Source: Euhalothece natronophila Z-M001
Lineage (GTDB): Bacteria; Cyanobacteriota; Cyanobacteriia; Cyanobacteriales; Rubidibacteraceae
Reading direction: 5' to 3'
DNA: 45,552 nucleotides
Assembly (NCBI RefSeq): GCF_007904085.1
Contig: NZ_CP042328.1
Coordinates: 1 to 45,552, forward strand
A program made the position numbers and the translations under genes. The notes beneath the pieces were generated by a model. It searched no databases. It saw only the letters and a program-made list of their open reading frames with translations, and had not been told where the DNA came from. Positions 2,407-45,552 of this stretch are shown here, in pieces. The stretch's first letter is position 1, and every line of letters starts with the position of its first letter.

Positions 2407-2588
2407 TACCATTATTTTCCTTTTAATACCATAAGTTACCATTATTCACCATGATATGACCAAAAATAACCTTCTTTTATCAATGGTATTTGAACGACTC
2501 AATAAGATTGGCGATTCCTTATCTACCATGATACTCCCTGATCTACCCTGATCTATCTTCATCTACCATTGTCATTAAGGATTACCAT
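2407..2588. repeat. Array of TACCAT boxes (first copy)
   Basis: Same array as 34000-34182. One A is missing before the last box here, so the 20-base phasing is one base off at that point. Confidence 0.6.
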
Positions 2589-18467: not shown

Positions 18468-18513
18468 AACAGAGACAATCATTTGCGTTTTATAATAGAG
18501 CTTAAAAATCATT

Positions 18514-19092: not shown

Positions 19093-19123
19093 GTAATTAG
19101 CTCAAATTGGAGAAAGTAAAATA

Positions 19124-20335: not shown

Positions 20336-20405
20336 GGGTAGATAACAACGCCATAGCGAACTGGGACGAGAAACCAAAAATTAGAAGTTTAAAAATGAAT
20401 CCCCC

Positions 20406-23400
20406 ATGTCAGATGTCGGAAGTATAGAACGGACTACCCAAAACCGCATTATCAAGTTTTTCCAAGATTACCTTAGCTACAGCTATTTAGGAAATTGGCA
20501 GTATCGCGAAAATAACCGTAATATTGAACCCGACTATCTCCGTCCATTTCTGGAACAACAAGGCTACAGCGATACCTTAATCAAAAAAGCGATCGCGCAA
20601 TTTCAGAAAACGGTTACTAACCAGAGTCAAAATCTCTACAACTTAAACAAAACGGTTTACAGCAGTCTTCGCTACGGCATTAAAGTTAAACCCGAAGTTG
20701 GGGCTAATACCGAAACAGTTTGGCTAGTTGATTGGGATACGCCTGAAAATAATCACTTCGCGATCGCAGAAGAGGTGGCGGTTAAAGGCGAACATCCGAA
20801 ACGCCCTGATATTGTTCTCTATATTAACGGCATTGCTTTAGGCGTGCTGGAATTAAAACGCAGCACTGTCAGCGTCTCAGAAGGTATCCGTCAAAACTTG
20901 GATAATCAAAAGAAAGAATTTATTGAGCATTTTTTTGCCACGCAACAATTAGTCATGGCAGGGAATGATACTCAAGGCTTACGTTACGGAACCATTGAAA
21001 CCCCTGAAAAATACTATCTGACTTGGCGAGAAGACAAAGACCAAGAAACCCCACTCGGCAACGACTTGGAAAACCCTTTAGAACGCGGGTTAATGCAACT
21101 GTGTTCCAAACAGCGATTATTAGAAATCATTCACAACTTTACTGTCTTCGATAATGGCAAGAAAAAACTCTGTCGTCATAACCAATACTTTGGGGTTAAA
21201 TATGCCCAAGACTATATCAAAAACGGCAAAGGGGGAATTATTTGGCACACCCAAGGCAGTGGTAAAAGCCTGACTATGGTGTGGTTAGCAAAATGGATTC
21301 GAGAATATAATCCCAATGCTCGTATTTTAATTATCACCGATCGCGATGAACTGGATAAACAAGTGGAGGGAGTTTTTTCTGGAGTGGATGAACCAATCAC
21401 TCGCACCCAAAGCGGGCAAGATTTAATCAAGAAACTCAATCAGACAACCCCCTCTTTGATGTGTTCCTTAATTCACAAATTTGGAAAAAATAAGACAACT
21501 GATTATGACAGCTACATCGAAGAATTAAACAATAGTCTCCCGCCAGACTTTCAAGCAAAGGGAGATATGTATGTGTTTGTGGATGAATGTCATCGCAGCC
21601 AGTCGGGGAAACTCCACGAAGCCATGAAACAAATTCTCCCTGATGCGGTATTGATTGGATTTACTGGCACGCCCTTATTAAAAAACGATAAACGCAAAAG
21701 TGTCGAAGTCTTTGGCAAATATATCCATACCTACAAATTTGATGAAGCCGTTACCGATAATGTCGTTTTAGATTTACGTTACGAAGCCCGTCGGGTGGAA
21801 CAAAAAATCACTTCTCAGGAAAAAATTGATCAATGGTTCGAGGTGCAAACCCAAGGGTTAACTGAATACGCTAAAACCGAACTCAAAAAACGTTGGGGAA
21901 CCCTGCAAAAACTCCTTAATTCAAAATCCAGACTGGAAAAAATTGTCGCTGATATTATTTTCGACTTTGCCACTAAAGATCGCCTCAAAAGCGGGCGTGG
22001 GAATGCCATGCTGGTTGCTGGAAATATTTATCAAGCCTGTCGCTACTACGAACTATTTCAAAATCAAGGCTTTACTAAATGCGCCATTGTCACTTCTTAC
22101 GAACCATCTCCCCAAGATATCAAAGGAGAAACCACTGGAGAACAAGAACGCACGGAAAAACTTAGGCAATACGAGATTTACCAGCAAATGTTAGGGGGAA
22201 AAGATCCCGAAAAATTTGAAGAAGATGTCAGGGAACAGTTTATTAACAATCCGGCGCAAATGAAACTGTTAATTGTAGTCAATAAACTATTAACTGGATT
22301 TGATGCGCCCCCTGCCACCTATCTCTACATTGACAAAACGATGCGCGATCACGGTTTGTTCCAAGCGATTTGTCGCGTGAACCGCTTAGACGGGGAAGAT
22401 AAAGAATATGGTTACATTATCGACTATCAAGACTTGTTCAAAAGTTTAGAGAAATCTATTGCTGACTATACCAGCGAAGCCTTTGAGGATTTTGACGATG
22501 AAGATATTCAAGGCTTACTCAGCGATCGCGTAGAAAAAGGGAAAGAACGCCTAGAAGAAATGCTAGAGAAAATTAGAGCATTATGTGAACCTGTTGAGCA
22601 ACCAAAAGACACCTCGGCATATATTCGTTATTTTTGCGGTTCCAACCAACCCGAACAAAATCCCGAACACCTCAAAACGTCTGAACAACAACGCCACACC
22701 CTTTATCAATATACCGCTTCCCTCGTTCGTGCCTATGCTAACCTTGCCAACGACATGATCGATGCAGGATACACGCCCCAACAAGCCTCAGAGATCAAAG
22801 CCGCAGTTAAACATTACGAACAAGCCCGTCAAGAAGTCAAACTTGCTAGTGGTGATTACATTGACTTAAAAACCTATGAACCCGCCATGCGCCATCTCAT
22901 TGATACCTACATCGGCGCAGAAGATAGCAAAACCATTACCGCCCTCGATGACATGACGCTAGTGGAATTAATTGTCGAACGAGGAGAACCCGCCCTTGAT
23001 GTTTTACCCAACGGGATTAAAGAGAATCCGGAAGCTGTGGCTGAAACCATTGAAAACAACTTACGCAAAATTATCACTGAGGAACAACCTACTAATCCCC
23101 GATATTACGAGCAAATGTCGGAATTGTTGGAACAATTAATTGAAGATCGCAGACAAGAAGCCCAAGATTATGAAACTTACTTGAAACGGGTTATAGAACT
23201 CAGTAAACAAGTCACTCAACCTCATAACTCTTCCCAGTATCCCCCTTCTCTAGATACTTCTGCCAAACGCGCCCTCTATGACAATTTAGATCAAGACGAA
23301 AGCCTTACGCTAGCTATTGATCACGCTATTAAAACAAATAAAAAAGACGGCTGGCGAGGCAATAAAATAAAAGAGCGTCAAATCAGAAGAGCGATTAAAG

Positions 23401-23468
23401 AACACCTAGATGACAAAGAAACGCTGAACCGCATTTTTGAATTAGTTAAGAACCAAAACGACTATTAA
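20406..23468 (+). CDS. hsdR: Type I restriction endonuclease subunit HsdR
   Basis: The 1020-residue product is the ATP-dependent translocase and nuclease subunit. The N-terminal nuclease domain carries the PD-(D/E)XK residues Asp135 (RPDIVLY), Glu149 and Lys151 (LELKRS). The SF2 motor has Walker A QGSGKS with Lys287, the DECH box at Asp393 (FVDECHRSQ), motif III GFTGTPL and motif VI region QAICRVNR. The C-terminal helical part should dock on HsdM. Length and motif order are normal for the family and nothing is truncated, so the restriction system looks complete. It starts 70 bases after hsdS and is followed one base after its stop by the metallopeptidase gene. Confidence 0.95.
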   Translation: MSDVGSIERTTQNRIIKFFQDYLSYSYLGNWQYRENNRNIEPDYLRPFLEQQGYSDTLIKKAIAQFQKTVTNQSQNLYNLNKTVYSSLRYGIKVKPEVGANTETVWLVDWDTPENNHFAIAEEVAVKGEHPKRPDIVLYINGIALGVLELKRSTVSVSEGIRQNLDNQKKEFIEHFFATQQLVMAGNDTQGLRYGTIETPEKYYLTWREDKDQETPLGNDLENPLERGLMQLCSKQRLLEIIHNFTVFDNGKKKLCRHNQYFGVKYAQDYIKNGKGGIIWHTQGSGKSLTMVWLAKWIREYNPNARILIITDRDELDKQVEGVFSGVDEPITRTQSGQDLIKKLNQTTPSLMCSLIHKFGKNKTTDYDSYIEELNNSLPPDFQAKGDMYVFVDECHRSQSGKLHEAMKQILPDAVLIGFTGTPLLKNDKRKSVEVFGKYIHTYKFDEAVTDNVVLDLRYEARRVEQKITSQEKIDQWFEVQTQGLTEYAKTELKKRWGTLQKLLNSKSRLEKIVADIIFDFATKDRLKSGRGNAMLVAGNIYQACRYYELFQNQGFTKCAIVTSYEPSPQDIKGETTGEQERTEKLRQYEIYQQMLGGKDPEKFEEDVREQFINNPAQMKLLIVVNKLLTGFDAPPATYLYIDKTMRDHGLFQAICRVNRLDGEDKEYGYIIDYQDLFKSLEKSIADYTSEAFEDFDDEDIQGLLSDRVEKGKERLEEMLEKIRALCEPVEQPKDTSAYIRYFCGSNQPEQNPEHLKTSEQQRHTLYQYTASLVRAYANLANDMIDAGYTPQQASEIKAAVKHYEQARQEVKLASGDYIDLKTYEPAMRHLIDTYIGAEDSKTITALDDMTLVELIVERGEPALDVLPNGIKENPEAVAETIENNLRKIITEEQPTNPRYYEQMSELLEQLIEDRRQEAQDYETYLKRVIELSKQVTQPHNSSQYPPSLDTSAKRALYDNLDQDESLTLAIDHAIKTNKKDGWRGNKIKERQIRRAIKEHLDDKETLNRIFELVKNQNDY

Positions 23469-28957: not shown

Positions 28958-29182
28958 ATGATAGCATTTACTTTCCAAAACAATCAAGCCACCGCCGCTC
29001 AACCTTCCTCTCTCCTCCCCTTCGACCAACAGGAACGGCGCAAACGTAATCCCTCCCAACTCTTACTCACCGCCCACGGCAAAGTCTTTTACCAACTAGA
29101 CCTCGGAATCCCACCAGATAGAGGGAGGAGGTTGATTCCTCTCCTCCAAGCTCAAATGATGGGAGGTGAGGCAAATGGCTAA
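28958..29182 (+). CDS. Small leader protein overlapping rep
   Basis: A 74-residue frame from ATG 28958; upstream in-frame GTG codons at 28901 and 28913 could extend it by up to 19 residues, and 28913 has GGGAG five bases before it. It overlaps the rep ATG (29175) by eight bases, and the rep ribosome site lies inside it, so translational coupling with rep is likely. The segment LLPFDQQERRKRNPSQLLL through FYQLDLG reminds me of the N-terminal domain of the urease accessory protein UreE. That is only a visual impression, and the nickel-binding part would be absent. It may be a replication control peptide. Confidence 0.5.
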   Translation: MIAFTFQNNQATAAQPSSLLPFDQQERRKRNPSQLLLTAHGKVFYQLDLGIPPDRGRRLIPLLQAQMMGGEANG

Positions 29183-32100
29183 TTTTATCTACCCTCACCA
29201 TCGGAATGAATGGAAAGGAAGCAAGATTTCAGAAGAAATCATTGAGCTTAATTTAAGAAGCCTCAAGGTTGAACCCTACGGCGCACGGGACGAGGCGATC
29301 GAGCTATTAGCTGACCTAGACAACATCAAACGTGATAACACGGGTCGGATTAGCCGTTCCGAGTTAAATAAATATAGCTTCCTTAATGATGGTGGCTGGC
29401 GTGCTCGGGGGGCTGATTTACAGAATGGAGGTTATTCTGACTTCATTACCCTGAAACCAGAAAACCCACGCTGGGATAGCCAGAAGCAGAAGCATATCAA
29501 ATACGAGCATCCCAGAGGGAGAGCTACAGAAATTTTTGCCCCTCTTGTGTCCTTTGCTGATAGTGCCAAAATTGTCGCAAAGAGCAAGAATGATGAGTTT
29601 CAGAAAGATTTTCTCAAACGGCTACAGGATGAAATAGACAAGGAAGAAATTAAGGATAGCAATAGCCTATTAGCCATCACTAGAGAAAATTGTAAGAATG
29701 GAGCAATTGAGGAGGTTTATCAGACTTCCCAGAAACTACGAAATAAGAAAGATGGTTTTGAGTACCTAAAATGTGAAGACTCTAAAACTCTCCTGAACGT
29801 TCTAATCAGACTAGATGAGGGCTTCTGGGAATCAGTTAAGACTCATCCTGTTTCTGTAGGAGTAACAGAAGGATACAAAAAAGCAGCGTCCATTCTGACC
29901 CAAGGATATCCTTGCGTCGCCGTTCCTGGGATCTGGAATTGGATCGATCAGGATGCTGAGAAATTTATCAACTTTAAGGGAGAAGAGAAACGCCGTAAGG
30001 AACTAACCCGACACTTAACACCCCTGTGCAAGGTTAAAAGAGAATTTTTCCTTGCCTTTGATGAGGATGAGAAAGCCAGCACCCGTCGCAATGTTGAACT
30101 CGCCCAAGAGGTATTAGGGAAGGTTCTCAGCAAAAATGGTGGCAAGGTTAGCATCCTTTACTGGAAACCCGAAGATGGAAAAGGGATTGATGACGCGATC
30201 GCGCTTAATGGTGCTAATTGGTTTAAGAAGGTTTATGAACAACGGCTGTCATTATCAGCATGGCTTTACTGGAATCAAAAATTAAGCCATGTTGACCAGC
30301 GATTAAATAAACAATTCCTAACCAAGGATGATATTGATAGTATTGCCAAAATCCTTGGAATTAAATCACCAAAGGGAACTGGCAAAACAGAAGCAATTGG
30401 CGATTATGTCCAAGAGTATATCAACGCTGGAATCCCTGTTCTCCTCTTATCCCACCGCCGCCAATTAGTAGAAGCCTTATCGGAACGGTTTGGCATTGAT
30501 AACGCTTATAACTTCCGTGTATCTGATACCAGGGGAGTTTTAGGGTTAGCGTTATGTTCTGATTCCCTCCACAGTAATAGTCAGGTTAACTTCAATCCTC
30601 ATAACTGGGATGATTTTGTTCTCATTATTGATGAGGTAGAACAAATGATTCCCCATACCCTCATCAGTACAGGGACAGATGTAGCTAACCACCGCACGGA
30701 AGTATTAGCCAACCTTTCTACCCTTTGCCAGAATGCCAAACAGATTATTTTATCCGATGCTGACCTCAGCGATCGCGGTCTCAATTATATCTCTTCCCTC
30801 ACTGGTCACTGTCAACAGAAGGTTATTGTTAATGATTTTCAACCTGCTAAAGGGAGAAAACTTTATAATTATCCTTCCCCAGAAGCTCTATTACATGACC
30901 TTCTTTTAGAATTAGATGATCCAGATTCTAAAGTGCTGATTCCCATAGATGCCCAAAGAGCAAGTTCCAAGTGGGGAAGCCAGACAGTAGAAACCTACAT
31001 CAAGACAAGATATCCCCATCTGAAGGTTTTACGAATTGACTCGGAAACCGTTGCTAATCCCGAGCATGAGGCTTTTGGGATTGCCAACCTGATCAATCAG
31101 GCAATTAAAGATTATGATGTGGTAATTTACACCCCCGTGCTAGGAACTGGCATAAGCATTGACGTTGAAAATCATTTCACCGCCGTTTACAGTTTCAATC
31201 AGGGAACGCAATCAGAAAACAGCACCCGTCAATTCTTGGCACGATTAAGGGATGATATCCCTCGCCACTGTTACTTTAAGCCCATTGGCGTTGGCTTTAT
31301 GAGTGGCGGCGAAACCGAACCCCGAGCCGTCAAACGCTCTAATAAATCAGTTACCAAACGGAACATTTGCAACCTGACCAAGCTAGACAATGAGGCTTTA
31401 GAGTTTGATTCCTTCGGAAACCATGTTAATGCTTACTGTAGCTATGTTGCCAACCATAATTTAGGCTTATCAGCGTATCGTGAAATTGTCTTGGAAGGGT
31501 TGAAAAGGGAAGGATATGAAATTATCCAAATGCAGGATATCGAGAAAGATGATAAGAAACCTCTAGGGAAAACAGTTACCACCACAAGAGACATCAACTA
31601 CGACAAGGAAACCAGCGCGATCGCGCAAATTGAAACCCCTTCCGATGAGGAACTTACCAAGCTGGAATCCAAACATGAATTAACCGATTCCCAACGCTAC
31701 CAATTAAGAAAAGGGAAAATGGAAAAGCGCTATGGTGTGGAAGCTGACAAGGAATTAGTTGAACAAGACGACGACGGGCTTTATCCTCAGTTATCCCTCC
31801 TATTTTGGCTTACAGTGGGACGCGATCAGGTAGAGGAAGCTGACCACCAGAAGGCTAAAAAATACGCTGATACGACAGGAGGAAAAGGCTACTCACCCGA
31901 TTTTAACCGCACTCAGAACCAAGCTAAAGTGCAAGTGCTAGAAGCTCTAAGAATCCCTGAAATTATAGCCATGGAAGGAGAGGAGGTAACTAATAGCTCG
32001 ATTGATTGGTGGTGGCAACATATTCAAGACATTTGTGAGAACAAAAATGCCAAGACCACCGTTAAGCAGTTCCTGAATTTAACGATATCCGATAAGGAAA

Positions 32101-32504
32101 CACCAATCAGAAACTTAGGGAAGATACTTAACCGCGTTGGGTATGAGTTAGCCTTCTCTTACCAGAAAGGGAAAAATGAGGGACGAGAACGAGTTTACAC
32201 AGTCGAACGGATAACCGACAAGCAAGATGTTATCTTCTCCCATTGGCTAGAGAAGGTTAATGACGACCTTAAGCCTCGGAATGTGGTTAACTTCCCTAAA
32301 CGCCTTACATCATTAATTAATTATATCAATGATGATTCTATCCCATTCTACGGCAATAAGGATAGGACTCTCTTTAACCTGTTAGCTAAAGATGACGTGC
32401 AAAAATCGGTAGATGATTTAAGAGCAATTCATCCCCATGTCACGAATGAATTGGCGAGAAGTTTAATTAATGAATTAATAGAATCCTATGAGGAGGTAGC
32501 TTAA
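29175..32504 (+). CDS. CyRepA1-type plasmid replication protein (TOPRIM primase/P-loop helicase)
   Basis: The 1109-residue product initiates plasmid replication. The N-terminal half resembles the DUF3854/TOPRIM region of the cyanobacterial CyRepA1 family: Glu232 in VGVTEGYKKAA, and the acidic cluster from Asp296 in LAFDEDEKAS. A helicase-like P-loop domain follows: Walker A PKGTGKTEA with Lys404, Walker B LIIDEVEQM with Asp486-Glu487, and a RQFLARLRDD segment with a candidate arginine finger. I start at ATG 29175 because GGAGGT at 29162-29167 sits seven bases before it; a GTG at 29166 in the same frame overlaps that site. It is coupled to the small leader gene. CyRepA-type proteins drive replication of small Synechocystis plasmids (established knowledge). 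A broken copy of the 3' end is at 1-923. Confidence 0.88.
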   Translation: MANFIYPHHRNEWKGSKISEEIIELNLRSLKVEPYGARDEAIELLADLDNIKRDNTGRISRSELNKYSFLNDGGWRARGADLQNGGYSDFITLKPENPRWDSQKQKHIKYEHPRGRATEIFAPLVSFADSAKIVAKSKNDEFQKDFLKRLQDEIDKEEIKDSNSLLAITRENCKNGAIEEVYQTSQKLRNKKDGFEYLKCEDSKTLLNVLIRLDEGFWESVKTHPVSVGVTEGYKKAASILTQGYPCVAVPGIWNWIDQDAEKFINFKGEEKRRKELTRHLTPLCKVKREFFLAFDEDEKASTRRNVELAQEVLGKVLSKNGGKVSILYWKPEDGKGIDDAIALNGANWFKKVYEQRLSLSAWLYWNQKLSHVDQRLNKQFLTKDDIDSIAKILGIKSPKGTGKTEAIGDYVQEYINAGIPVLLLSHRRQLVEALSERFGIDNAYNFRVSDTRGVLGLALCSDSLHSNSQVNFNPHNWDDFVLIIDEVEQMIPHTLISTGTDVANHRTEVLANLSTLCQNAKQIILSDADLSDRGLNYISSLTGHCQQKVIVNDFQPAKGRKLYNYPSPEALLHDLLLELDDPDSKVLIPIDAQRASSKWGSQTVETYIKTRYPHLKVLRIDSETVANPEHEAFGIANLINQAIKDYDVVIYTPVLGTGISIDVENHFTAVYSFNQGTQSENSTRQFLARLRDDIPRHCYFKPIGVGFMSGGETEPRAVKRSNKSVTKRNICNLTKLDNEALEFDSFGNHVNAYCSYVANHNLGLSAYREIVLEGLKREGYEIIQMQDIEKDDKKPLGKTVTTTRDINYDKETSAIAQIETPSDEELTKLESKHELTDSQRYQLRKGKMEKRYGVEADKELVEQDDDGLYPQLSLLFWLTVGRDQVEEADHQKAKKYADTTGGKGYSPDFNRTQNQAKVQVLEALRIPEIIAMEGEEVTNSSIDWWWQHIQDICENKNAKTTVKQFLNLTISDKETPIRNLGKILNRVGYELAFSYQKGKNEGRERVYTVERITDKQDVIFSHWLEKVNDDLKPRNVVNFPKRLTSLINYINDDSIPFYGNKDRTLFNLLAKDDVQKSVDDLRAIHPHVTNELARSLINELIESYEEVA

Positions 32505-32531
32505 GTGGTCACGCGAGATTATTAATAATAT

Positions 32532-32791
32532 ATGGGAATCAATCAAAGTGACTCTAGTAAACGCGAAGCCTTCTCCAAACGCCTTGTACTATGGCGACCT
32601 CGCGCTTTTAACTTATGAACATTGTCGTGGCGATTTAGATAAGTTTGCTGGATTAATCTTAGATAGCTTAGTGGATGTTGGAATCATCAAAAAATGATCA
32701 GGTCAAGTGCATCCACCGATTAGAAATTAGCTTGAATGATTCTCCTATCTGGTTCAAGATGGTATTAGGAATTAGCCTGAAAATAAAATAA
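32532..32791 (+). pseudogene. RusA-like Holliday-junction resolvase remnant
   Basis: Directly after rep, three frames together spell a RusA-like protein. The key stretch RGDLDKFAGLILDSLVDVGI resembles the RusA motif DxDN...K...LDaL..., followed after a frame change at six A residues (32689-32694) by KNDQVKCIHRLEISLNDSP, like the usual DDsqV segment. Another break at TTTT near 32605 separates the ATG-started beginning (MGINQSDSSKREAF). The first Asp pair and the later Asp are kept, but the catalytic-site Lys position is Gly. Both contig copies share both breaks, so it is probably a decayed gene, though two shared homopolymer errors cannot be excluded. Confidence 0.5.
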
Positions 32792-32891
32792 ATAAATAAA
32801 TAATATTGAGTTAAAGGTTAGAAAAATAATCGCTGACCATTAATGACTTGATTATGTCTTAAAAATAACAATTTAAAAGGAGAAAAAATAT

Positions 32892-33221
32892 ATGAATAAA
32901 AAAGAAAAAATATTGAATTATTTAAAACATAACCTGATCGGTACACGCAAACAAATTGCTCAAGCAATCGACTATTCCGAATCTGCTACCTACAGTGGAT
33001 TGATGGAACTACTCGAAGAAAACCAAGTAGATCGCGAACAAGGAAAAGGCCGTAAGCCTGATACTTATTACCTCAAAAATAATTCCAAAAAAACACCAAA
33101 GAAAATCAAAAGTAAGTTTTCGAGTTTCCCAGATGAAAAGATTTATACCAAAGTCTTTTCATTAGATGATTTAGAGCATAAAGAGGTTATCATTTTGATT
33201 CTAACAGACAGAAACGCCTAG
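32892..33221 (+). CDS. Small winged-helix DNA-binding protein
   Basis: The 109-residue product has an N-terminal winged helix-turn-helix (~1-62). KKEKILNYLKHNLIGTRKQIAQAIDYSESATYSGLMELLEENQV reads as helix, turn and recognition helix, and GRKPDTYYL as the wing. The C-terminal part is basic and then acidic (PKKIKSKFSSFPDEKIYTKVFSLDDLEHKE), perhaps a dimerisation or partner segment. The ATG follows AAAGGAG and a strong terminator follows the stop. It lies between rep and the RHH-like gene, so regulation of copy number or maintenance genes is plausible (inference). The same gene is seen at 1305-1634. Confidence 0.8.
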   Translation: MNKKEKILNYLKHNLIGTRKQIAQAIDYSESATYSGLMELLEENQVDREQGKGRKPDTYYLKNNSKKTPKKIKSKFSSFPDEKIYTKVFSLDDLEHKEVIILILTDRNA

Positions 33222-33253
33222 ATAGTTTAGTTCAATCTTAACTTTAGTCAGAC

Positions 33254-33287
33254 TCCCCCTTATTATTACTTAGGGGGATTTTTTTTT
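33254..33287 (+). terminator. Rho-independent terminator after the winged-helix gene
   Basis: TCCCCC pairs with GGGGGA across an AT-rich loop and is followed by nine T residues. It lies between the plus-strand winged-helix gene and the convergent minus-strand gene and works only in the plus direction. Confidence 0.85.
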
Positions 33288-33406
33288 ACAGTCCTAATAA
33301 TTGAGTCCCTGTTTCTGTAGCTATGTTATGATCTAATTTTTACTTACTTTTTTAACTGTTTTCTTGCTTAATCTCTTTCTATCTTCAACATTTTTTCATG
33401 TTTGAT

Positions 33407-33943
33407 CTAAAAAGATTCTATCATATCATTTAATGCCTCTTCCCCATCTGCATTTCTATCATCATCTATCGGAAAATTTATTTCTGTATCTCTCTTTCTC
33501 GCTTCCATGATTAACTCTGTTTTTGTTTTTTCTCTTTTTTTCTCCTTTTCCCCTTCCTTACTTGACTCTTCACTTGACTCTTCACTTGACTCTTGGCTCA
33601 ATTCTACAGTTGATGGGGGGTTTGCTTCCCCAACCGAGTTCACCCTTCTCCCTAGCATCTCTTCCACATCCAACCCTGCTAGAATTGCCAAACTATGTAT
33701 TTGACCCCATAAGTCACTTATAGAACGCCTTGCCATCACTTTTAATTCTTGCTCTGAAATATCTTCAAATTCTGATATAAGTTCAGGATAATAATACTTT
33801 TCGATCGCATGGCAAATCATTGCATTTCTTTCCCCAGATTCTATTTGATTAAGGTACTTAAACAACTTTCCTCGCTTACTATTTACTTTTGCTTGTGATT
33901 TATAGTTAATATATATTGTGGTATTACTCATAGGTGATTCCAT
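33407..33943 (-). CDS. Putative ribbon-helix-helix plasmid maintenance protein
   Basis: The 178-residue product has a possible RHH-type N-terminal domain: a strand TTIYINYKS, then helices SKRGKLFKYLNQI and GERNAMICHAIEKYYYPEL. A second helical segment follows (SEQELKVMARRSISDLWGQIHSLAILAGL). The tail is low-complexity: a SQESSEESSEESSKEGEKEKK tract from 12-base tandem repeats, then an acidic end. Two ATGs are possible, 33943 and 33931 (MSNTTIYIN); the second is about 11 bases after AGGA, the first directly abuts it. The gene reads away from the TACCAT-box array at 34000-34182, about 60 bases upstream, as expected for a partition or autoregulator protein binding its own upstream repeats. No ParA gene is present. 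The family assignment is inference. Confidence 0.6.
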   Translation of the reverse strand: MESPMSNTTIYINYKSQAKVNSKRGKLFKYLNQIESGERNAMICHAIEKYYYPELISEFEDISEQELKVMARRSISDLWGQIHSLAILAGLDVEEMLGRRVNSVGEANPPSTVELSQESSEESSEESSKEGEKEKKREKTKTELIMEARKRDTEINFPIDDDRNADGEEALNDMIESF

Positions 33944-33999
33944 CCTTTCTTTTTCATAACAAAAATCTTATAATTATGTGATTTACGACAAACAAGCGA

Positions 34000-34182
34000 T
34001 ACCATTATTTTCCTTTTAATACCATAAGTTACCATTATTCACCATGATATGACCAAAAATAACCTTCTTTTATCAATGGTATTTGAACGACTCAATAAGA
34101 TTGGCGATTCCTTATCTACCATGATACTCCCTGATCTACCCTGATCTATCTTCATCTACCATTGTCATTAAGGAATTACCAT
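34000..34182. repeat. Helically phased TACCAT-box array
   Basis: TACCAT occurs at 34000, 34020, 34030, 34117, 34157 and 34177, with variants CACCAT at 34040 and TACCCT at 34137 and one inverted box ATGGTA at 34076. Spacings within each half are multiples of 10 bases (20, 10, 10; then 20, 20, 20), placing boxes on one face of the helix. Such phasing is typical of multimeric operators or centromeres bound by RHH proteins, and of iterons. The adjacent leftward gene encodes the best candidate binder. Confidence 0.65.
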
Positions 34183-34479
34183 AAATGATTAAAATCACAC
34201 ACCAAAATTTGAGAAAAATCCTAAGCAAACTGCAAAAAACTCCAAAATATGGAGGATTCACGTCAACTCCCCTTTTTACTCCCTACTGCTACCAAACTGA
34301 TTTATATTATGATTTAATCAAGCTATTCGTATAAATTTAAGATAAAAATAAAATCAATTAATAAAAATAATATCTATATTCCCTATATAGCAAAGGATAT
34401 AGCTAGCTAAAGATACATAAGTTACTTTATAAGTTTTATGTTTATAACAATAATACTGCAAAAAAGCAGAGGTAAATTA

Positions 34480-34704
34480 TCAAGTTATTGAATTTTCTGA
34501 GGATTCAGACCCCTCTCTAACAAATTCTATTTTTTCTATGGGCGTTATTATCTCAGGCAATGACAACACTGTACTAAATAACCTAATAGAGCTTTGCGAA
34601 CCTGCCCTATGGGTCGCAACCCCACATCCCACTGAAAAAGGTCTAGCAACAGTTTGATCTAGCCATATCCCCCAAATTAAAGAAGGAGAAACCTTTAATC
34701 TCAA
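34480..34704 (-). CDS. Doubtful small frame in the AT-rich region
   Basis: A 74-codon frame starting with TTG, containing IWGIWLDQTVARPFSVGCGV and FSTVLSLPEIITPIEKIEF. The content is protein-like, but there is no ATG and no ribosome-binding site, and an in-frame TAG lies just upstream. It may be a remnant of a larger gene. No family recognised. Confidence 0.22.
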   Translation of the reverse strand: MRLKVSPSLIWGIWLDQTVARPFSVGCGVATHRAGSQSSIRLFSTVLSLPEIITPIEKIEFVREGSESSENSIT

Positions 34705-34760
34705 TATGAGCTAATCAGCGATCGCTATAATCACCTAGAACATTTTAATCAACCCCTCCC

Positions 34761-34788
34761 AATCCCCAATTTTCTGGGGTTTTATTTT
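34761..34788 (+). terminator. Terminator-like hairpin without an upstream gene
   Basis: CCCC (34764-34767) and GGGG (34776-34779) enclose an eight-base loop and are followed by TTTTATTTTATTT. It points in the plus direction, yet the nearest plus-strand gene ends 1.5 kb earlier behind its own terminator, so it may end a small non-coding transcript. Confidence 0.5.
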
Positions 34789-35729
34789 ATTTACATTTTT
34801 TATCTTATTTAAATCACATTTGTTATTTACATAGTTATTTACTTTTTATATCAATCACAATTTTATTATGACTTTTTTTTCAGGATTCTCTTTTTGCTTG
34901 CCTATCTCTTCTCTTCCCCCCCATGCCTCCTCTTTTTTCTACTTGATCCCGCAAGCAAGGCAAAAAGTATGACAACAAAAAGGGGGGAATTTTTAAAGTT
35001 CAACGCGATCGCGCCCCACCTTAAAAAAATATAAAAGGGATGGTAATCATAAAACTATAATTTCGCATAATAATGGCTATAAACCAGTCATGGCAAGAGA
35101 TATAGCAGTTATACCCCCTTATAACTAGATTAAATTTATAATATCACTAAATTCAAGCTAACTAAATCACTAAAAAAATATATCTCAAGCATTTTAATAA
35201 GCAGTTTATATTACATAATTATAGGTATTAACATCGAATAAAAAGGGAGAAGTGAAGGCAAAATAGCAAGTAGTCAGACTCAGGAAGAGGAAAAAACGAT
35301 CACATTACCAAAGTAAACGTCTATGGAGTAAAATTTTACTATAATTTAAACTCTATATATAAACGATCAAAATTTAATAATCACGAAATATAATATCAAT
35401 CAAACAAATCAGAAATGGGAGAACGTTTTCAATATCACTTTCAGTATCTTCCAAAAGCTAGTGAGTTTTACACAAAAATGAAAGATTGGTAATCATCCCT
35501 ATATTGCTTTAGGATTAACATAACAACATCATCAAACTGATCTTTGATTGAATCTTCAATAGCGATTTGAATTTAATCAATATAACGAAAGTAAAGACAA
35601 TTAAATAGTTATCAATTAATTTGGAAACTTTATGCTTTGGTAAGTTAAAATGAATTTTGTCTCCTTAATTTTTTCTTTGCTTGGTGTAATAAGGGTAATC
35701 TATCCACTTTCCTTTTGGTTTATATTAGA

Positions 35730-35767
35730 GAACGCCCTAAACGGCGGGGCTTTAGACCCGTGATTTT
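35730..35767. other. IS200/IS605-like end hairpin, possible relic
   Basis: The stretch has overlapping inverted repeats: CGCC-CTAAA-CGGCG, and CTAAA...TTTAG around a GC-rich core, then GACCCGTGATTTTT. GC-rich subterminal hairpins of this kind are seen at ends of IS200/IS605 elements common in cyanobacteria. No tnpA or tnpB gene is nearby, so at most this is a solo end or a small non-autonomous relic. Confidence 0.3.
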
Positions 35768-36197
35768 TGGTAATCATTACTTCCTTAATATGAAGTTTTG
35801 TAACCATTTGACCCTCAGTAATTCCTAAGTGACCCAAAAGTTGCCAAATCTCTCATCAAAACAGTATTTTAACTGATTTACATTCTAATCATTAATATTT
35901 TCGTTCTATCACTTAAAATCCCCTCATACAGAAAATCAGAAAAAAACATCTTTCTAGGGCTTTTCAGTAACTCATTTGATCAAAAAAGATTTTCTCACAA
36001 AATTAGAGTGAAAGTCTTGTAACCCTCTCTTCACAATCAGTTCAGGATTTTTAGACTCTCTACACAAACTTAAAAACTGTTCGCTAATAGCAATCACAAT
36101 TACACTCCCCTCTAAGGCATAGATTTAATTGAATTTGCTATTTTAGTTATTAGTTTTCCCCCTGATCTTCATTTACCTTGTAGTAGGAGTTAAGTCA

Positions 36198-39100
36198 ATG
36201 TCTGATCCTGCGAATTTAGAATTTTCCTTTGACCCTCTTTTTAACACTTGGCAAGAATTTCTCACGGAAGCCGCAACCAGTGGACGTTTAATTAGTGCCG
36301 CCCAAGACGCACTACTCTTAGACGACACTCCCGACTCACTAGAAACATTAGTCAGTCAGTGGCAAGAAGGAGACTTTTCCCAACTGCCAGAAATTGAGGT
36401 GTTATCTGATTCTAATATATCAGGAGCGGCGGGAGCGTATGCTCGCAGTAATGAAACGATTTACCTGAATGAGGATTGGTTAGCTTCAGCGAGTGAAGAT
36501 AGAGTAATGGCAGTGCTAACAGAGGAGTTAGGACATCATCTGGATAACGTGGTGAATGAAGAGAATACCCCAGGGGATGAGGGAGCAATTTTCTCTGCTT
36601 TGGCATTGGGAGAAGAGTTAACGGAGACGGAATTAGAGACGCTACGGGAAACGGATGATCAGGGGACGATTGAAGTAGAGGGGGAAGAAATTGTTGTCGA
36701 ACAGTCGGATGATTCTGTAAGTAATTCAGTGGTCACTTGGGGAGCTTCTGTCAGTGGTGGCGACCTCACTGGTGAAGAGGACGACAGAGCAACGGGAGTG
36801 CCAGGAGGAGAATTAAATAATGTCCAAGATATCATTCCTACTCAGGAAAGTAATGCCTTTGCCGCACTGAAAAAGGATGGCTCAGTGGTCACTTGGGGAC
36901 ATGCTACTTGGGGTGGGGACTCTTCTAACCCAACAGGAGGAGAATTAAACAATGTTCAGGATATCTTTTCTACTCAAAGTGCTTTTGCAGCACTGAAAGA
37001 AGATAACTCAGTTGTTACTTGGGGAAGTGCTGGCAGCGGTGGCGACCTCACTAGTGAAGAAGACGACAGGCCTATAGGAGTGCCGGGAGGAGAATTAGAT
37101 AATGTCCAAGACATCTTTTCTAATAGTCGTGGGGCTTTTGCTGCGCTGAAGAAAGATGGCTCGGTTGTGGCTTGGGGAAATCCTAGCAGTGGTGGAGATG
37201 TCACTGGTGAAGAAGACGAATTTGATCGTGCAACAGGAGTCACAGGAGGAGAATTAAACAATGTCCAAGAGATCTTTTCTGCTAGTGGTCTGTTCGTTGG
37301 TGGAGCTTTTGCGGCGCTAAAAGAAGATGGCTCAGTGGTCGCTTGGGGACACCGTAGGGGTGGCGGTGACCTCACTGGTGAAGACCAAGGCTCCCTTCAT
37401 GAGCATGACAGAGCAACGGGAGTGCCCGGAGAAGAATTAAACAATGTCCAAGAAATTTTTTCTACTAGCAATGCCTTTGCTGCCCTGAAAGAAGATAGCT
37501 CAGTGGTTACTTGGGGACACTCTCGCTATGGTGGCAACTCCTCTGAGGCAATAGGAGGAGAATTAAACAATGTTCAAGAGATATTTTCTACTGAGGGCGC
37601 TTTTGCCGCCTTGAAACAAGATGGCTCAGTTGTCACTTGGGGAGACTCTTGGCTAGGTGGCGATCTGAGTGAGGAACGTGAGGAGGTTACTGGTGTCCCT
37701 GATGGGGAATTAAATAATGTTCAAGATATCTTTTCTACTCGTAAAGCTTTTGCAGCTCTGAAGGAAGATGGCTCAGTTGTCACTTGGGGAGATTCTAGGA
37801 GGGGTGGAGATCTCATTGGCAACGAAGATGTCTACCCTCCTGCTATAGGAGTACCAGGAGGAGAATTAAATAATGTTCAAGAGATATTTTCTACTTATGA
37901 AGCCTTTGCCGCCTTAAAAGAAGATGGCTCAGTGGTCGCTTGGGGAGATGCTAGCAGGGGGGGAGACCTCACTGGTGAAGAGGCTGACAGAGCTATAGGA
38001 GTACCAGGAGGAGAATTAAATAATGTTCAAGAGATATTTTCCAATCAGAGAGCCTTTGCAGCGCTAAAAGAAGATGGCTCGGTGGTTGCTTGGGGACACC
38101 GTTCTGGTGGCGCCGACCTTACTGGTGAAGATGGTGGTTCTGGCCTCCCTGATGGAGAATTAAATAATCCTCAAAATATTTACCCTGGTGGTAATGCCTT
38201 TGCCGCCATTGTTGACGATGACCCCACCGCTCCCGAAGTCATCTCTAAAGACCCTTTTTCTATTGATCTTGACACCGTAGCAGTGGGAGACACCCTCTTC
38301 ACTGTAGAAGCCAACCCAGAAGACAGTGAAGAAGACGACCTTGAATTTTCCATAGCCGATGACATCCCCGAACTTAGCATCGACCCCAACAGTGGCGAAG
38401 TCAGCCTCGAAGAAAAAGAAACAGTAGAAGAGGGCGACAGCTTTGACTTCGAGATCATTGTTGAAGAGCAACAAACAGGAATCACCAGTGAACCAGAAGA
38501 ATTTTCAGTCGAGTTTACTGGATCATCACTTCCTAACCTAACTCCTTATCAACCAGACGGCTGGGATGATGAAATTGTTATTACTAATCAATTTGGAAGC
38601 AGGGAAAATACTCGTTTCTTACATGAACAAAATAATGACAATATCTATGCTAACTTTGCTTATCGTAATGAAGGAGCACCAATAGGCGCTGATAGCCACA
38701 ACACAAGACTGCTTTTAATGGGTGATGGGCAAAGTAAGGTTGTCTTTGAAGAGGAAATTGCTTTTTCTCCTGTAGATGGATTTTATGCCTTTGAAGACAT
38801 TAATTTAGGCTCTCTTGAGCCAGGTGAAGAATATAGCTTAGAGTTACAGATTGATTACGAGGATAATATTGAAGAAAGCGATACCAATAATAATATTCTT
38901 GAAAAAGAGTTCGAGGTACATGAAGTCGAATCCACTGGAAATGCTGCCTTTGATCTCATTGACTTAGACGTTCTACGCAGCGATCCTTTTTACTCAAACT
39001 TAGACGGTAGCAACTCAACTGCTGCAGTTATTGATAGTGGCTTAGATGGTTCACATCCTTACTTAGAAGATAACTTTGTAGGATTTAAAGATTTTGTTGA

Positions 39101-42100
39101 GAACACCTCGTTTACAGATAATCCAAGGGATAGCTATGATGCTACCGGACACGGAACCCATGTTGCAGGAACCGTTGGCTCTAGCGAGGATGACATTGGA
39201 GTAGCACCAGGGGGGAGCCTTTTAGGACTGGGAGTTGAGGAGGACGAGGATCCTAATTTTCAAGCCCTAGAAGAAGCCCTTAAATGGGTAAAGGATAATC
39301 ACGAGGAGTATGGCATTGATGTAGTGAATATGTCTTTGGTGTTTGGGGGATTTTTTCAAACCCCTGAGCCGTGGGAACTGGGGCAGAAGTTAGAAAACAA
39401 TAACATTACTCTAGTTGGAGCTGCAGGGAATGAGTATGCTGACCATCAAGAACAAGGAGTACGATTCCCTGCTATCGATTCTACCTTAAATGTAGGTTCT
39501 GTTTTTAAGCAAGATGAAGGGAGCTACGGACCAAGAGGCAGAGGGGCTGCTTACCATGATAATACTAAAGCCGATCTCGTTAGCGCATTTAGTAATCGTC
39601 TTCATCAGGGGGATTCCACTGATACAACCTTATTTGCCCCTGGTGCAACGATTAACAGTACAGAGCCAACCTCTTGGTTGCGACTTTCATCATCCCCTAC
39701 AGGTGAGAGAGCTGGAACCAGTATGGCGGCTCCTCACGTCAGTGGTCTAGTTAGCTTAATGCAGGATGTAGCAAGAATGACAGGGGGGACTACTCTAGAC
39801 CCTGATACCATTGCTAAGATTCTTCACAACACTGCTGATACCATAACCGATGATGGAAGTCCTGCTTCATACTCTAATTTTCTGCTTGGAAGTAAAAACC
39901 TTTTACCAGTAACAGGAGAAGAATTTCCTCGCATCAATGCCTATAACGCTATTGAGGGAGTTCGAGAACATATATCTGAAAACACTGTTGATCGAGACTT
40001 CCCAGATACTCCAGACGCACTTCTTCCAAACACCATCAATTATGGTGGAACCTTTGCAGGAGCCACTTTTGCCTCTTCACTAGATGGTTTAAGCACAGCA
40101 ACTCATAGCAATCGCCTCGGAGAAGAAGGAACAGAAGGAGAAATTAACGACACTGAAGTCAGTATGTACGAATTCAAGGTGGAATCGGACGGGATTACCA
40201 CCATTGAACTCAGTTCAGTTCCAGAAGAAGAAGACATGGATACCTATCTGCGTCTCTTCAATGAAGATGGAGAAGAAATTGCTGTTGATGACAACAGTGG
40301 TGAAGGAAACTACTCCCAACTTGAACTCGAACTTGACCCTGGCACTTATTATGCAGGAGTAAGTGGCGCTGGCAATGAAGACTATGATCCCAACCTCGCT
40401 AATAGTGGAACTGAAGGTGATACTGGCGCTTATAGCATTTCCTTTAACTTAGAAAATGAAGACCCCACAGGGACTTTATCAGGAGCCAATGATGTCTCTT
40501 TAGGGAATTATCAGAATCCCTTTGTCTTTAATGGCGTTTTAGGCACAGATGGAGAAGAGGAAATTCCTGTCACCTTATCAGACGTGGACTTATTTCGAGT
40601 CACAGCCCCTGATGACGGTGAACTTCTAGCCAATATCAACACCCCCTACGAAGATAACCCAGCAGAAACTTACCTACGAGTGTTTGATGAAGATGGTAAC
40701 GAACTTTATGCCAATGAAAATGGAGTCTTTGAAAACGAAGTTCTGTCCGAACAAAACGAAACTCTAGACAGCGAAGAAGGATTAGTTTATCGTAATGACA
40801 CCTTTGTTGGACATGAAACTGATAGCTTTATTTCTGCCCAGGTCGAAGGTGGCGAAGTTTACTATGTTGGCGTATCTGAACCCGATAACAACGACTATGA
40901 TGCCGAAACCTTAGATGACCGCCCTGATCCCATTCAAGAGGATGTTCTTTATGACTTAAGCGTTCAATTTGTTAACGACGACCTCAACGGCAGTATTATC
41001 CAAGCCACTGACCCCATTTCCCTTCCCATTGAAGATGAAACCCGATACATTGGCCAAGACTTTAACGAAGAAGGGGAATTAATTGAAGTTGGCGACAAGG
41101 ATGTTGACCTAGAGAAAATTAACCTTGATGAACCAGGGGTTTTATCAGTAGAAGCCACCTCCTCTGACTCAGATCCAGTAGAACTGGTTTCCCAAGTTTT
41201 TGATGAAGAGGGAAATGCGATTGCAAGAGATGTTCAACCCGGTGATACTCGCCAGCTATTAGAACTTGAACCCGACACCGACTATTATGTTGCCATCTCA
41301 GGATGGGGCAATAGTGAGTTTGATCCTTATCAACTAGGAAGTGGCACTAGCGGCGACACGGGAGAATATAATCTGAATCTCGACTTTCTTGATCAACAAG
41401 AAGTCATTAACGACCTGAGAAATCACACCATTGACTCAGAAGCCGTAGAAACCATTACCGAAGATGAGCCTCAAATTGGTCGTATTGGGATTGATAATGA
41501 CCTACGAGTTGGGGCGGAAGATGTTGACCTCCATCGCTTAGTTCCCGAAGCCGATAAAGACTTTGTCATTGAAGCAGAAGGGGTTGACTTAGGGCCAGGG
41601 GGGGCTATCACCATTTTTACGGCTATTTAATGCCGATGGAGAAGAAATTGACTATAGTGGCAACCCCAGTATTGAAACCTCACTCCAAGAAGGGGAAGAG
41701 TATTATATTGGAGTCAACGGAGCCAGTGAAAATGCGCGAGATTACGACCCCGTAACCGGAGACAACCCAGCAGAAGGTAGCACTGGTGAGTATCGCTTAT
41801 CAGTGATGGGAAATGAACCTCCAGAAATTACGCCTGAAGAAGACGCATTTTCTATCCTTGAAACCGTCACTGATGGCACAGAAGTCTTTACCGTAGAAGC
41901 TACTGACCCCGATGGGGATAACGAAGCCATTACCTATAGCTTCACTGAAGATTATCCCTTTGCCATTGATGATGGTGTGGTTACAGTGGCAGATAGTGAA
42001 GAGTTAGAAGCCGATGACAGCTTTGAGTTAGAAGTAGAAGCCACTGATGAACTCGGCGCTAGCAGTACCGAAACCTTTACCGTAGAAATTGACCCCAACC

Positions 42101-44725
42101 TTCCCCCGAATTCGATGAAGATGAATATAGCTTTACTATTGCTGAATTAGGGAATGCTGAAAACGGCGATGAAGTGGGAACCATTGCCGTCAGTGACCCC
42201 GAAGGAGATAACTTTACTCTTAGCCTACCCGAAGATGTAAGTGAGTTTGCTATTGATGACGATGGAACATTTACCATTGCTTCTGTAGAAGAATTAGAAC
42301 TCGGGGAATTCGACTACACAGTGGAAGCCGAGGATGAATTCGGAAACAGCAGTGAAGCTGATGTCACCATCAACATTGATAGCCCCCCACCAGAAATCAC
42401 CCCTGAAGACGAAGCCTTTTCTATACTTGAAACCGTCACTGATGGTACAGAAGTCTTTACCGTAGAAGCCATTGACCCCGATGGGGATAACGAAGCCATT
42501 AGCTATAGCTTCACTGAGGACTATCCCTTTGCCATTGATGAGGATGGTGTAGTTACAGTAAAAGATAGTGAAGCGTTAGAAGGAGAAGAGAGTTTTGAAT
42601 TAGAAGTGGTAGCCACAAGTGAATTGGGAGTGGAGAGTGACCCCGTTAGCTTTGACGTGGAAATTGAAGAAGATGAACCTGATGAGCCAATTGATGAAGA
42701 GTTTGAGCAGGAACAAGATAGATTAGCGGAGGAACTTAATAATTCTTTCGATGACCCCGACGATCTTGTTGATAACTTCTTAAGACTTCTAATGACCTCA
42801 TTGAAAGAGTGACGAAGACTTTCCTATCAATACTTTCTTTACCGCCGTTGACGATTTCTTGATTTTTGGCTTTGATAATGCTGAGATTTTAGAGGACTTT
42901 TTGGCTGACGTTAATCACTTTATTGAAAGTGATGACGATTTAAGTGATTTTAATTTCAGAGATATCACTGATGAGTTAATTATTAACAGCAATTTAATTG
43001 ACGAGCAGAGAAGTGAGGTTAAAAACACTCTTAATGAAACCTTTCCCTCTTTAGAAGAGGACTTCGATAACATTTTGATCAAATTTTGAGTTTGGTGATC
43101 CCTTTACTTTAGAGAGATTATTTGTTGCTGTTGAAGAGATTATTTCAGCTTTTGAGGATGCTTCCCTTCTTGAAAACTTCTTTGATCATTCTGAGGAAAT
43201 TATCGAAGCAGTTGATGAAAATGAATCTGTCCTTTTAGATAGATTCTTGTCTACTGTGGGACAACTTAGTATAACCAATCAGTCTTCTCTTCTTGAAGAC
43301 TTTATAGAAACTTCTAGTCAAGTCTCTCAAAAAATTGAAGAGACTGAGATTTTGCGTATCTTCTTCTTTACTGCAGAAGAACTTAGCTTAACTATTGGTG
43401 ATGAGCCTAATAGTAGTGGAGAAGAACTTAGCTTGACTACTGATGATGCTCCTAATAGTTTAGAAGATTTCTTACAAAGTGTTAATGAGATTATCGATAG
43501 TGAGATTTAGAAAAATTTTTCCTGAGTATTGAAGAAGTGATTGAAAATGATGAAGAGAACTTAATTGATTTGAACTTCAGTGATTTGGTTGAGGAGTTGA
43601 TGAGCGAAGAGCCTGACCCCGACCCAGAACCTGACCCCGAGCCTGACCCTGCACCTGATCCTGCACCTGACCCCGACCCTGAACCCGAACCCGACCCAGA
43701 ACCTGACCCCGACCCAGAACCTGAACCAGAAACCATCGAAGCAGGAGATGAGGGAGAAGAGCTTGAACCTTCTGCTCCTGATACTCCTACTGAATTCATT
43801 GCAGGTAGTGGCGATGATACAATGACCGGTAGCATAGCCCCTGATCTTTATGACTTAACCGCAGGAGGAGCAAATACCGTACAGGGGACAGTAGAACAAC
43901 TTGACAAGATACGGTTGTGGCTTGATACTGATGATCTCTTAAAGGTTATAGACGCTACCTTTAACCAAGAGAACCTAACAGTAACTCAAGGGTCAGCCAT
44001 CCTTGAAATTGACGCTAACGATGATGGGGAAACTGATTCCACTGTTACCTAGAAGGAGATTACTCGGATGGAGAATTTCTCACCGAACAAGTAGAAGGTG
44101 ATACTGAGATAGCTTTGAACCTGAGCCTGAACCCGAAGCAGATTTACCTGACATTCCCTTGCAGTCAACTCAGAATCTATCTTTAACGAATCACTCTACC
44201 TTGCTCAAAATCCAGATGTTCTGCAAGCAGTGGAAAATGATGATTTTGACTCAGGATTAGACCATTTTCAGCAATTTGGATTGGGAGAAAATCGAATCCC
44301 AACAGAAGTTTAGAAAACTTTGACCCGACTAGCTATCTTAGTGAAAACTCAGATGTGGCTGATGCAGTAGAAGATGAGATTTACAAAGTGCCCTTGACCA
44401 CTATCTCAATTATGGTTTCAAGAAGGACGAGAAGGAAGCAATCTTCCTTATGATGAAGCCTTCTACTTGAATGAGCATTCTGATGTTCTAGACGCGGTAG
44501 AAAATGATGATTCGGCTCAGGATTGAACATTTTGTCTTATTTGGTTTAGAAGAAAATCGAGCTTCCACACAAGAGTTACTAGAGTTTGATGCCGAAAGCT
44601 ACTTGGGAGCGAATTCAGATGTAGAACAAGCCGTGCAAGACGATGAGATGTCTAGCGCTCTAGAACACTGGATTAACTTTGGTATTGACGAAGGACGCGA
44701 TTGGGGAACTGAAACAACTATCTAG
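36198..44725 (+). pseudogene. Second copy of the giant subtilisin/RCC1 protein gene, broken by edge errors
   Basis: The first 1800 codons are the same as the intact copy at 4591-13134, including the RCC1-like repeats and the full protease domain. Frame is first lost at an extra G (seven instead of six, about 41599-41605), then at a shortened C-run near 42105, and at further single-base losses near 42777, 42811, 43074, 43507 and 43907 and many more after 44040. All lie toward the contig end. I treat the breaks as sequencing error; the gene should be annotated once, from the first copy. Confidence 0.85.
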
Positions 44726-45008
44726 CGGGACTTTAGGCGATCCTTCTGATCAAAAAATCCCTAAACTTCTCCACTGATCGAGCTTTTAGCGCGATCGCGC
44801 TTCGCCATTTGCCCTGATGATCAATGCAAAAGGCTTGACAAAACACGATCATATAAACAGAGTTACAGACTTGTTAACTTACAGACTTACAGAACATGGG
44901 AGTGAAACTGATCGCGATCGCGCTTCGGTAACTAAGCCACATCGCGCCCATAAAAATATAAACTCGAAGGCTTGATCCTCCAATCGCTGAATTTCTCCAT
45001 TTAATGAC
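44726..45008. other. Intergenic region (second copy)
   Basis: Matches 13135-13418, with HIP1 octamers near 44792 and 44912. Nothing new. Confidence 0.5.
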
Positions 45009-45552
45009 CTAAACTTTCTTTTCAATTTCCCAAGCTATTTCTCGTCCTATCTTTCCCGCTTTGGTGAAGATAAACGCCCCACGTTCCCATGTTGCTCCGT
45101 GTGGTTTAGAGCCAACTAACTCATAGACTTGTTGGGTTGTTAATAACCAACCTTTTTCGCAAGCCTCTTCTAATTCTCGCCAGTTTTGAAGGGGTGATCT
45201 AGCTGGTTGTAATTGATCTGCTAACAATCGGATCAAATCTTCCCAATTTGGTTGGTTTTCAGTTTCTTCTGTGTTTTCAATAAGGCTTGCTTCTTGATAA
45301 ACCAGTTCCTGGTTTTTAGATCGGGCAAGTCTATCGTGTCCACTGGTAGAGTCTAGTGAGTCCACCGCTAGACTGGAATCAAAATCTGCCATTTTCCCGC
45401 CCTGATTCGTAATCCAATGGTCTAGGGCATCTAGGAGTTTTAATTGCTGTTCTGTCACATAATAAACCCCTCTATTTTAGTGGGCTTAATCCCTAAATGC
45501 TTTCTACGATTGATTTCTGCTTGTTTCTTAATTCCGTAACGCTCTTTCAATT
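45009..45552 (-). CDS. MerR/HTH-like protein gene, second copy, cut by the window edge
   Basis: Matches 13419-13963 of the first copy. A missing C near 45470 breaks the frame upstream of the residues reading MTEQQLKLLDALDHW, and the true N-terminus lies past the end of the window. Use the first copy. Confidence 0.75.

Follow-up and report, generated by a model that had tools for sequence, protein, structure and literature searches.

The locus and its replicon

The stretch of DNA analysed here, called the window, is 45,552 nucleotides long and constitutes contig C3 of a five-contig, 3.52-Mb genome in which C1 is the chromosome and C2 a contig of 82 kb. On its forward strand, at 29166..32504, lies the gene for a plasmid replication protein of the CyRepA1 family, 1112 amino acids long (NF042913, E 1.4e-122; DUF3854, E 2.3e-34). 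It is followed, at 32892..33221 of the same strand, by a gene for a protein of 109 amino acids with weak winged-helix-like profile matches; genes similar to this one occupy the same place on C2 and C4. Convergent with it, on the reverse strand at 33407..33943, is a gene for a protein of 178 amino acids that family profiles mark as parR-like, with a predicted DNA-binding N-terminal half, a low-complexity linker and a C-terminal tail. A terminator-like hairpin, recognised by a consensus match only, separates the two convergent genes (33256..33277, forward strand). The repeat array studied here lies directly upstream of the 178-residue gene, 1.5 kb downstream of the CyRepA1 gene.

The contig is over-circularised: positions 31570-45552 duplicate positions 1-13963 with 0 mismatches and 59 gap openings. 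An overlap of about 14 kb between the ends, in which the only differences are indels, indicates a circular replicon and an assembly prone to indels. The true size of the replicon is about 31.6 kb, and it has a single array: the repeat found at 2407..2588 (forward strand), considered as a second site, was rejected, being the same array seen again in the contig overlap. Contig C4 is over-circularised in the same way, its positions 1-8095 corresponding to 31891-40000 with differences that are gaps only. A DNA search of PLSDB with positions 29000-35600 yields no match.

Two other regions of the replicon can be described. A frame of 2847 amino acids at 4591-13134, shorter in the overlap copy at 36198-41630, belongs to a very large gene with RCC1-like and subtilase domains, then cadherin-type frames; its product is perhaps a surface or secreted protein. 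Positions 15267-23468 hold the type I restriction-modification genes HsdM, HsdS and HsdR, identified with Pfam; HsdM is separated from HsdS by XisH, XisI and Uma2-type genes.

A phased array in two clusters

A preliminary description of this DNA had reported TACCAT boxes, six of them direct and one inverted, together with two variants that differ by one base, between positions 34000 and 34182, helically phased within each half, and a scan of the sequence bears it out. The direct boxes start at 34000, 34020, 34030, 34117, 34157 and 34177, and the variants are CACCAT at 34040 and TACCCT at 34137; the single inverted box (34076..34081, reverse strand) stands in the spacer between two clusters. 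Cluster B, at 33996..34045 of the forward strand, is made of five contiguous 10-bp units, with boxes at 34000, 34010, 34020, 34030 and 34040. Cluster A, at 34113..34182 of the same strand, spans seven 10-bp registers, five of which (34117, 34137, 34147, 34157 and 34177) keep at least four of the six box letters, as do 10 of the 12 units of the two clusters together. Read in the sense of parR, the unit is ATGGTAnnnn. The 10-bp register is strict inside each cluster, and holds only there, since the step from 34040 to 34117 is 77 bp, which is no multiple of 10.

The autocorrelation of the array reaches z = 5.3, 4.9 and 3.1 at lags 10, 20 and 30; among 105 sampled 203-bp stretches of the replicon, z exceeds 2.1 only at the duplicate copy of the array (z 6.2). 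The five-unit tandem score at period 10 is reached by none of 300 shuffles, and only this period stands out: z is at most 0.8 at periods 8, 9, 11, 12 and 13, and two control upstream regions in the window give -0.2 at period 10. Shuffling the replicon 30 times never produced a 6-mer of at least three different letters with six copies in 183 bp, and produced one with five copies once.

The 178-residue protein

Searched against Pfam with E up to 1, the 178-residue protein has no match. In NCBIfam it weakly resembles two models, one of ParR (E 0.037) and one of replication factor C (E 0.15), each time far below the cut-off, and scans of 21 family members against both collections bring nothing better than E 0.037. 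There is no tblastn match to the protein in PLSDB; a pattern scan of the genome contigs with the four ParRs of its own genome returns 135 pattern matches, none confirmed; and the ParR profile, compared with solved structures, has a best E of 0.4, to an unrelated one.

AlphaFold2 models the whole protein from 21 sequences with a mean pLDDT of 60.8, and residues 1-104 from 20 sequences with a mean of 70.3. These monomer models, of low to middling pLDDT, form no strand and place helices at about 23-33, 36/38-57/59, 64-88 and 93-101, an order fitting a ribbon-helix-helix (RHH) protein; the whole-protein model also has a tail helix at 166-176. Foldseek finds no significant match and no ParR for either model, the best being a MazG-like structure (E 0.34) and an unrelated one (E 1.8). 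The putative DNA-contact strand reads TIYINYK on C3 and C4, TISFQYR on C1 and TVYFRYQ on C2: of the alternate positions T, Y, N and K the last three vary, and the positions between them stay hydrophobic or aromatic. An alternation of this kind marks the strand of an RHH protein. The models speak neither for nor against an RHH fold, which the protein of the window may have. A C-terminal motif, chosen after viewing the tails, is found in 15 of the 17 named ParRs with complete ends (three truncated rows omitted), yet shuffling the window protein's own tail reproduces it 333 times in 2000, which makes it weak for that protein.

Linkage of the family to ParM

The chromosomal copy of the gene has a neighbour, P0003, that matches 102 plasmid records; among the best 40 of these 102, 31 are annotated as ParM/StbA family and 9 as hypothetical. 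A profile of 13 ParMs, compared with solved structures, finds CorM (9.9e-23), CBg-ParM (2.7e-9), Cbc-ParM (4.4e-9) and ALP12 (1.4e-5). CorM (solved structure 9rmi) is grouped with FcmB/FcmC as a cyanobacterial ParM-like actin.

With E up to 0.01, a profile of the four ParRs of the genome has matches in 21 of the 388 genomes of the order, its own included. Twenty of the 23 outside matches were taken as distant homologues, and ParM is adjacent at 13 of these 20 loci; two of the seven others, L049 and L060, are near contig ends. With a profile built from the window protein and the 20 homologues, a ParR is found on the downstream side of ParM, at most some hundreds of bases away, at 21 of 23 named ParM loci. 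Of the 23, L095 is apparently on the same contig as the profile's own L056, and L092 ends right after ParM. This wider profile has matches in 103 of the 388 genomes. The ParM profile has matches in 232, so that a ParM elsewhere in a genome is common, and not a rare event in itself.

For a count by locus, 148 ParR rows among the matches listed were paired with the listed ParM rows and four more, the row of the duplicate copy on C3 being omitted. A ParM lies within 3 kb in 107 of them, in one case as a fragment at a contig end. The remaining 41 include C2, C3 and C4 of the window's own genome; the other 38 divide into 27 with a ParM no farther away than 3.5 kb, in some cases truncated where the contig stops, three with no more than a short piece resembling ParM (L109, L143 and, at a contig end, L108), four with no ParM (L114, L117, L125 and L142) and four near contig ends. 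In total, a ParM lies at no more than 3.5 kb in 134 of the 148 rows among the matches listed, which makes ParM-less copies rare. Because matches to the family profile adjoin ParM at most loci, the window protein is best read as a ParR; it is, by these profiles, a member of a cyanobacterial ParR family beyond the coverage of Pfam and NCBIfam.

Arrays at the loci of relatives

Known ParRs bind direct repeats of 10 bp (pB171) or 11 bp (R1), and parC is usually upstream of parM (both from part of PMC9426499). The array test applied to relatives uses the five-unit tandem score against 200 shuffles, keeps the best of periods 8-13, and counts z > 3 as a pass, upstream of an estimated parM start. Of the 23 named loci, 21 were entered, and L095 was too short. 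Of the 20 named loci that could be tested, 14 pass upstream of parM, each with a period of 10 or 11, and 6 give no array; on the side downstream of parR there are two passes among 16, with periods of 11 and 12. Among 13 unnamed parMR operons, 7 of the 12 validly tested pass upstream of parM, at period 11, and 5 have no array. The loci tested include close relatives and are hence not independent. The tie of the family to ParM, together with the frequent 10- or 11-bp arrays at its loci, supports the proposal of the preliminary description that the array is a ParA-independent partition site beside a DNA-binding adaptor.

Copies that lack ParM or lie at a contig edge are mixed in this respect. L066 has z 14.3 at period 11, and L065 (in the same place as L142) and L117, the latter at period 11, pass weakly; L125 passes at the non-helical period 9, which means that the mark of z > 3 is not free of chance passes. 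The ParM-less L066/L109 combines its strong 11-bp array with a short ParM-like fragment beside parR (E 0.0014), and its genome has five ParMs on other contigs. By the same mark, L053, L054, L049 and L114 have no array, and L053, L054 and L114, ParM-less and arrayless, speak against the explanation proposed below, as do the 6 named and 5 unnamed operons without an array.

One further locus, L057 (G152:C95), holds a short ParR-like gene without ParM, near a relaxase-like gene; downstream of it is a strong 10-bp array with TTGCATGAAA-type units (z 10.7).

The other copies in this genome

Homologues of the window protein are encoded on C4 (95% identity), on the chromosome C1 (81%) and on C2 (66%). 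A search with the single sequence finds no homologue in any of the 8 other genomes of the taxonomic family; the wider profile finds a ParR in one of the 8, G004, together with a ParM. Contig C4 shares positions 29138-35037 of the window, the Rep-parR region, at about 95-98%, with an identical array region. Both C2 (L014, 9564-14542) and C4 repeat the arrangement of the window, in which parR converges with the 109-aa gene and a large gene follows. On C4 this gene is CyRepA1; on C2 its product, of 1175 amino acids, has no NCBIfam replication match, a BLASTP E of 0.16 to the CyRepA1 of the window and no clear family, and may be a cyanobacterial replication protein of another kind.

The chromosomal parR has an open frame that overlaps the frame of the ParM-like gene; close by are a GIY-YIG gene and a P4-type primase that contains DUF3854. 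With these neighbours, and with blocks in common with the window (an Hsp20 gene, parR and the stretch beyond the array), the locus looks like a plasmid-derived island. Its parR is frameshifted near the start, in an assembly rich in indels, and the locus may thus not be intact. The order of the genes there (L013, 6472-8249) is parR then parM; in the 13 unnamed operons examined it is parM then parR.

Arrays of period 10 stand upstream of parR on the chromosome (z 6.4, 0 of 300 shuffles) and on C2 (z 3.3, 1 of 300), with letters that differ from those of the window. Conservation in relatives, which the preliminary description had named as its own check, is thus found for the spacing but, C4 excepted, not for the letters of the boxes. 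Arrays of period 10 with different letters thus sit upstream of parR in three diverged lineages of this genome. We hold it very probable that the array is a ParR-binding site of the centromere type.

These same arrays bear on the possibility that the array is an operator only, a site for regulating its own gene and perhaps the neighbours, with no role in segregation. Its place directly upstream of parR is what an operator would have, and in R1 the parC repeats flank the promoter of the operon (PMC9426499, by the title of its reference 5). However, the recurrence of arrays with other letters beside parR on the chromosome and C2 goes against it, promoter-like matches in the region are at chance level (7 found, 6.5 expected), and an array of twelve units in register, spread in two clusters over 187 bp, would exceed what an operator is expected to need. 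We consider an operator without any other role quite unlikely.

It had also been suggested that the array is an iteron set or a rep-linked origin, which here would mean iterons bound by CyRepA1. The array does follow the CyRepA1 gene at 1.5 kb, and C4 has both rep and array in common with the window. But in this genome parR and its array accompany large replication-type genes of three unrelated sorts: on C2 the large protein has no detectable similarity to CyRepA1, and the chromosomal copy accompanies the P4-type primase. Moreover, other genomes have arrays on the upstream side of parM, and pSYSA, a CyRepA1 plasmid, can replicate from a fragment of 3,566 nt that includes ssr7036 and slr7037 (PMC9978351, in part). 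Iterons bound by CyRepA1 are, on this evidence, extremely improbable.

Contigs C3 and C4 have identical arrays and Rep regions about 97% identical, and both are in the assembly, which argues against a simple or strict partition incompatibility, unless the two plasmids live in different cells of the culture; their co-occurrence is otherwise unexplained.

No motor gene found on the plasmid

The preliminary description saw no ParA on the plasmid, and we agree: the ParA family (PF13614) has 22 matches in the genome, on C1, C2, C4 and C5, and none on C3. A type I (ParABS) system was rejected for the window plasmid, there being no ParA ATPase on C3. Searches with one ParM and with the profile of 13 ParMs find a single ParM in the genome, on C1, beside the fourth ParR, and none on C2, C3, C4 or C5; the search with one ParM has one further match, at E 0.19, and the profile has none. 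Three plasmids of the genome, C2, C3 and C4, thus carry a ParR without a ParM. A minimal one-protein system, which the preliminary description had considered, may apply to a plasmid on which neither ParA nor ParM was found, but the chromosome does encode a ParM.

The parR frames of these three copies are open despite their divergence. With the 97 random substitutions that separate C3 from C2, only 0.98% of 5000 simulated genes remain without a stop, and with the 67 that separate C3 from C1, 3.4% do; open frames being rarely kept by chance, their survival in ParM-less copies speaks for function. It also weighs against decay, in which the locus would be a remnant of ParMRC, deprived of parM and no longer functional. 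Such decay would have parallels in loci where no more than a short piece of ParM is left beside ParR (L109, L143), but the arrays of the window, C1 and C2 hold their 10-bp period in spite of different letters, and the DNA-binding half and the array are identical in C3 and C4 between flanks that differ, an identity that recent exchange would also produce. We regard a remnant as very unlikely.

The same open frames would suit a motor-free mode, in which ParR on the array stabilises the plasmid without a dedicated NTPase, for instance by attachment to the nucleoid or by pairing of copies. The model for it is StbA of R388, which works on two groups of 9-bp repeats, five to a group and 2 bp apart, its putative ATPase partner StbB being dispensable for stability (PMC3098194, in part); and neither ParA nor ParM was found on the window plasmid. 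Against this analogy stand the ParM that neighbours the family at most loci, the ParM that the genome does encode, and the end of the C-terminal tail, which is kept in all four copies of the genome. A motor-free mode, the chief alternative to the explanation proposed below, seems to us rather unlikely.

Head and tail of ParR

Compared with C4, the window has 0 base differences in 33630-33932 and in 33956-34458; on both sides the two differ by several per cent, with 35 differences in 32872-33629 and others again from 34530 on. Compared with the chromosomal, ParM-linked copy, the window is nearer in the tail than in the head: codons 141-178 have pS 0.05 and pN 0.02, and codons 7-60 have 0.26 and 0.14. 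The ParR of the window has the predicted DNA-binding half and the array of C4, and a C-terminal tail that is nearly that of the chromosomal ParR. We read this as the head of ParR moving with its array, the tail appearing to be exchangeable separately. In the comparison of C3 with C2 the tail has pN 0.149 and pS 0.150; being equal, they give no clear sign of selection on it, and the common tails could come from plain recombination.

Proposed explanation

To judge from sequence, the array is best read as parC and its neighbour as the ParR of a type II (ParMRC) locus, and not as iterons. We lean, if by a little, towards a parC-type centromere bound by the neighbouring ParR, on a plasmid without its own parM, with the chromosomal ParM acting in trans. 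The divergent neighbour would make ParR, which may occupy the 10-bp units next to one another, all on the same face of the helix, so that a ParR-parC complex is built on the array; ParR probably also represses its own promoter. The window plasmid would have lost, or never had, a parM of its own, and the C-terminal tail of the plasmid ParR would most likely be bound by the chromosomal ParM, whose gene adjoins that of a ParR paralogue; this ParM may move the plasmid in trans, sharing out its copies at cell division. That the window plasmid does use ParM in trans has, in our estimate, close to an even chance, or a little less.

A tentative extension, somewhat less likely to hold than to fail, is that one chromosomal ParM drives several co-resident plasmids, each with a ParR-parC cassette only. 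ParR would then be modular, its head exchanging together with the matching array and its tail matched to the shared ParM. We suggest such cassettes because the window and C4 are identical over the head of ParR and the array and differ on both sides, with a tail that is nearly the chromosomal one.

The locus offers a concrete candidate for a partition module on a CyRepA1 plasmid, a type of replicon studied for cyanobacterial vectors (PMC10899382 and PMC9978351, each in part), and it points to a ParR family outside Pfam and NCBIfam. If a chromosomal ParM does serve several plasmids, their segregation would depend on a cytoskeletal motor encoded by the host.

Comparison with known systems

No case of a ParM-less ParR, of ParM in trans or of a cyanobacterial ParMR stood out among the literature matches listed, judged by titles and the starts of abstracts, in a collection outside which lie most subscription journals and all preprints.

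The ParMRC systems of R1, pB171 and pSK41 and the parMRC families of C. perfringens resemble the present locus in having an adaptor gene beside direct repeats phased at about one helical turn, in two clusters, and the family here is linked to ParM; they differ in that no parM was found on the plasmid, only on the chromosome, and in that the protein is without a Pfam family, its best NCBIfam ParR match (E 0.037) being far below the cut-off. StbA and the stbDRs of R388 likewise combine two sets of short, helically spaced direct repeats with one DNA-binding protein, here a predicted one. In R388 a motor is not needed for stability (PMC3098194, in part), whereas the protein here is from a ParM-linked family, and the likeness is one of analogy.

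Two chromosomal systems come closer in the location of the motor. In the ParM/ParR-like pair FcmB/FcmC of Nostoc punctiforme, as here, an actin similar to ParM is encoded on the chromosome together with a ParR-like partner; the role of FcmB is in cell shape (PMC12645912, in part), whereas the chromosomal pair of the present genome lies in a plasmid-like island and has ParR paralogues on three plasmids. The chromosome-encoded ParMs of the cParCMR systems (PMC12270681, in part) also share with this genome a ParM on the chromosome; what sets the present case apart is that plasmids of the same genome carry ParR and an array without ParM.
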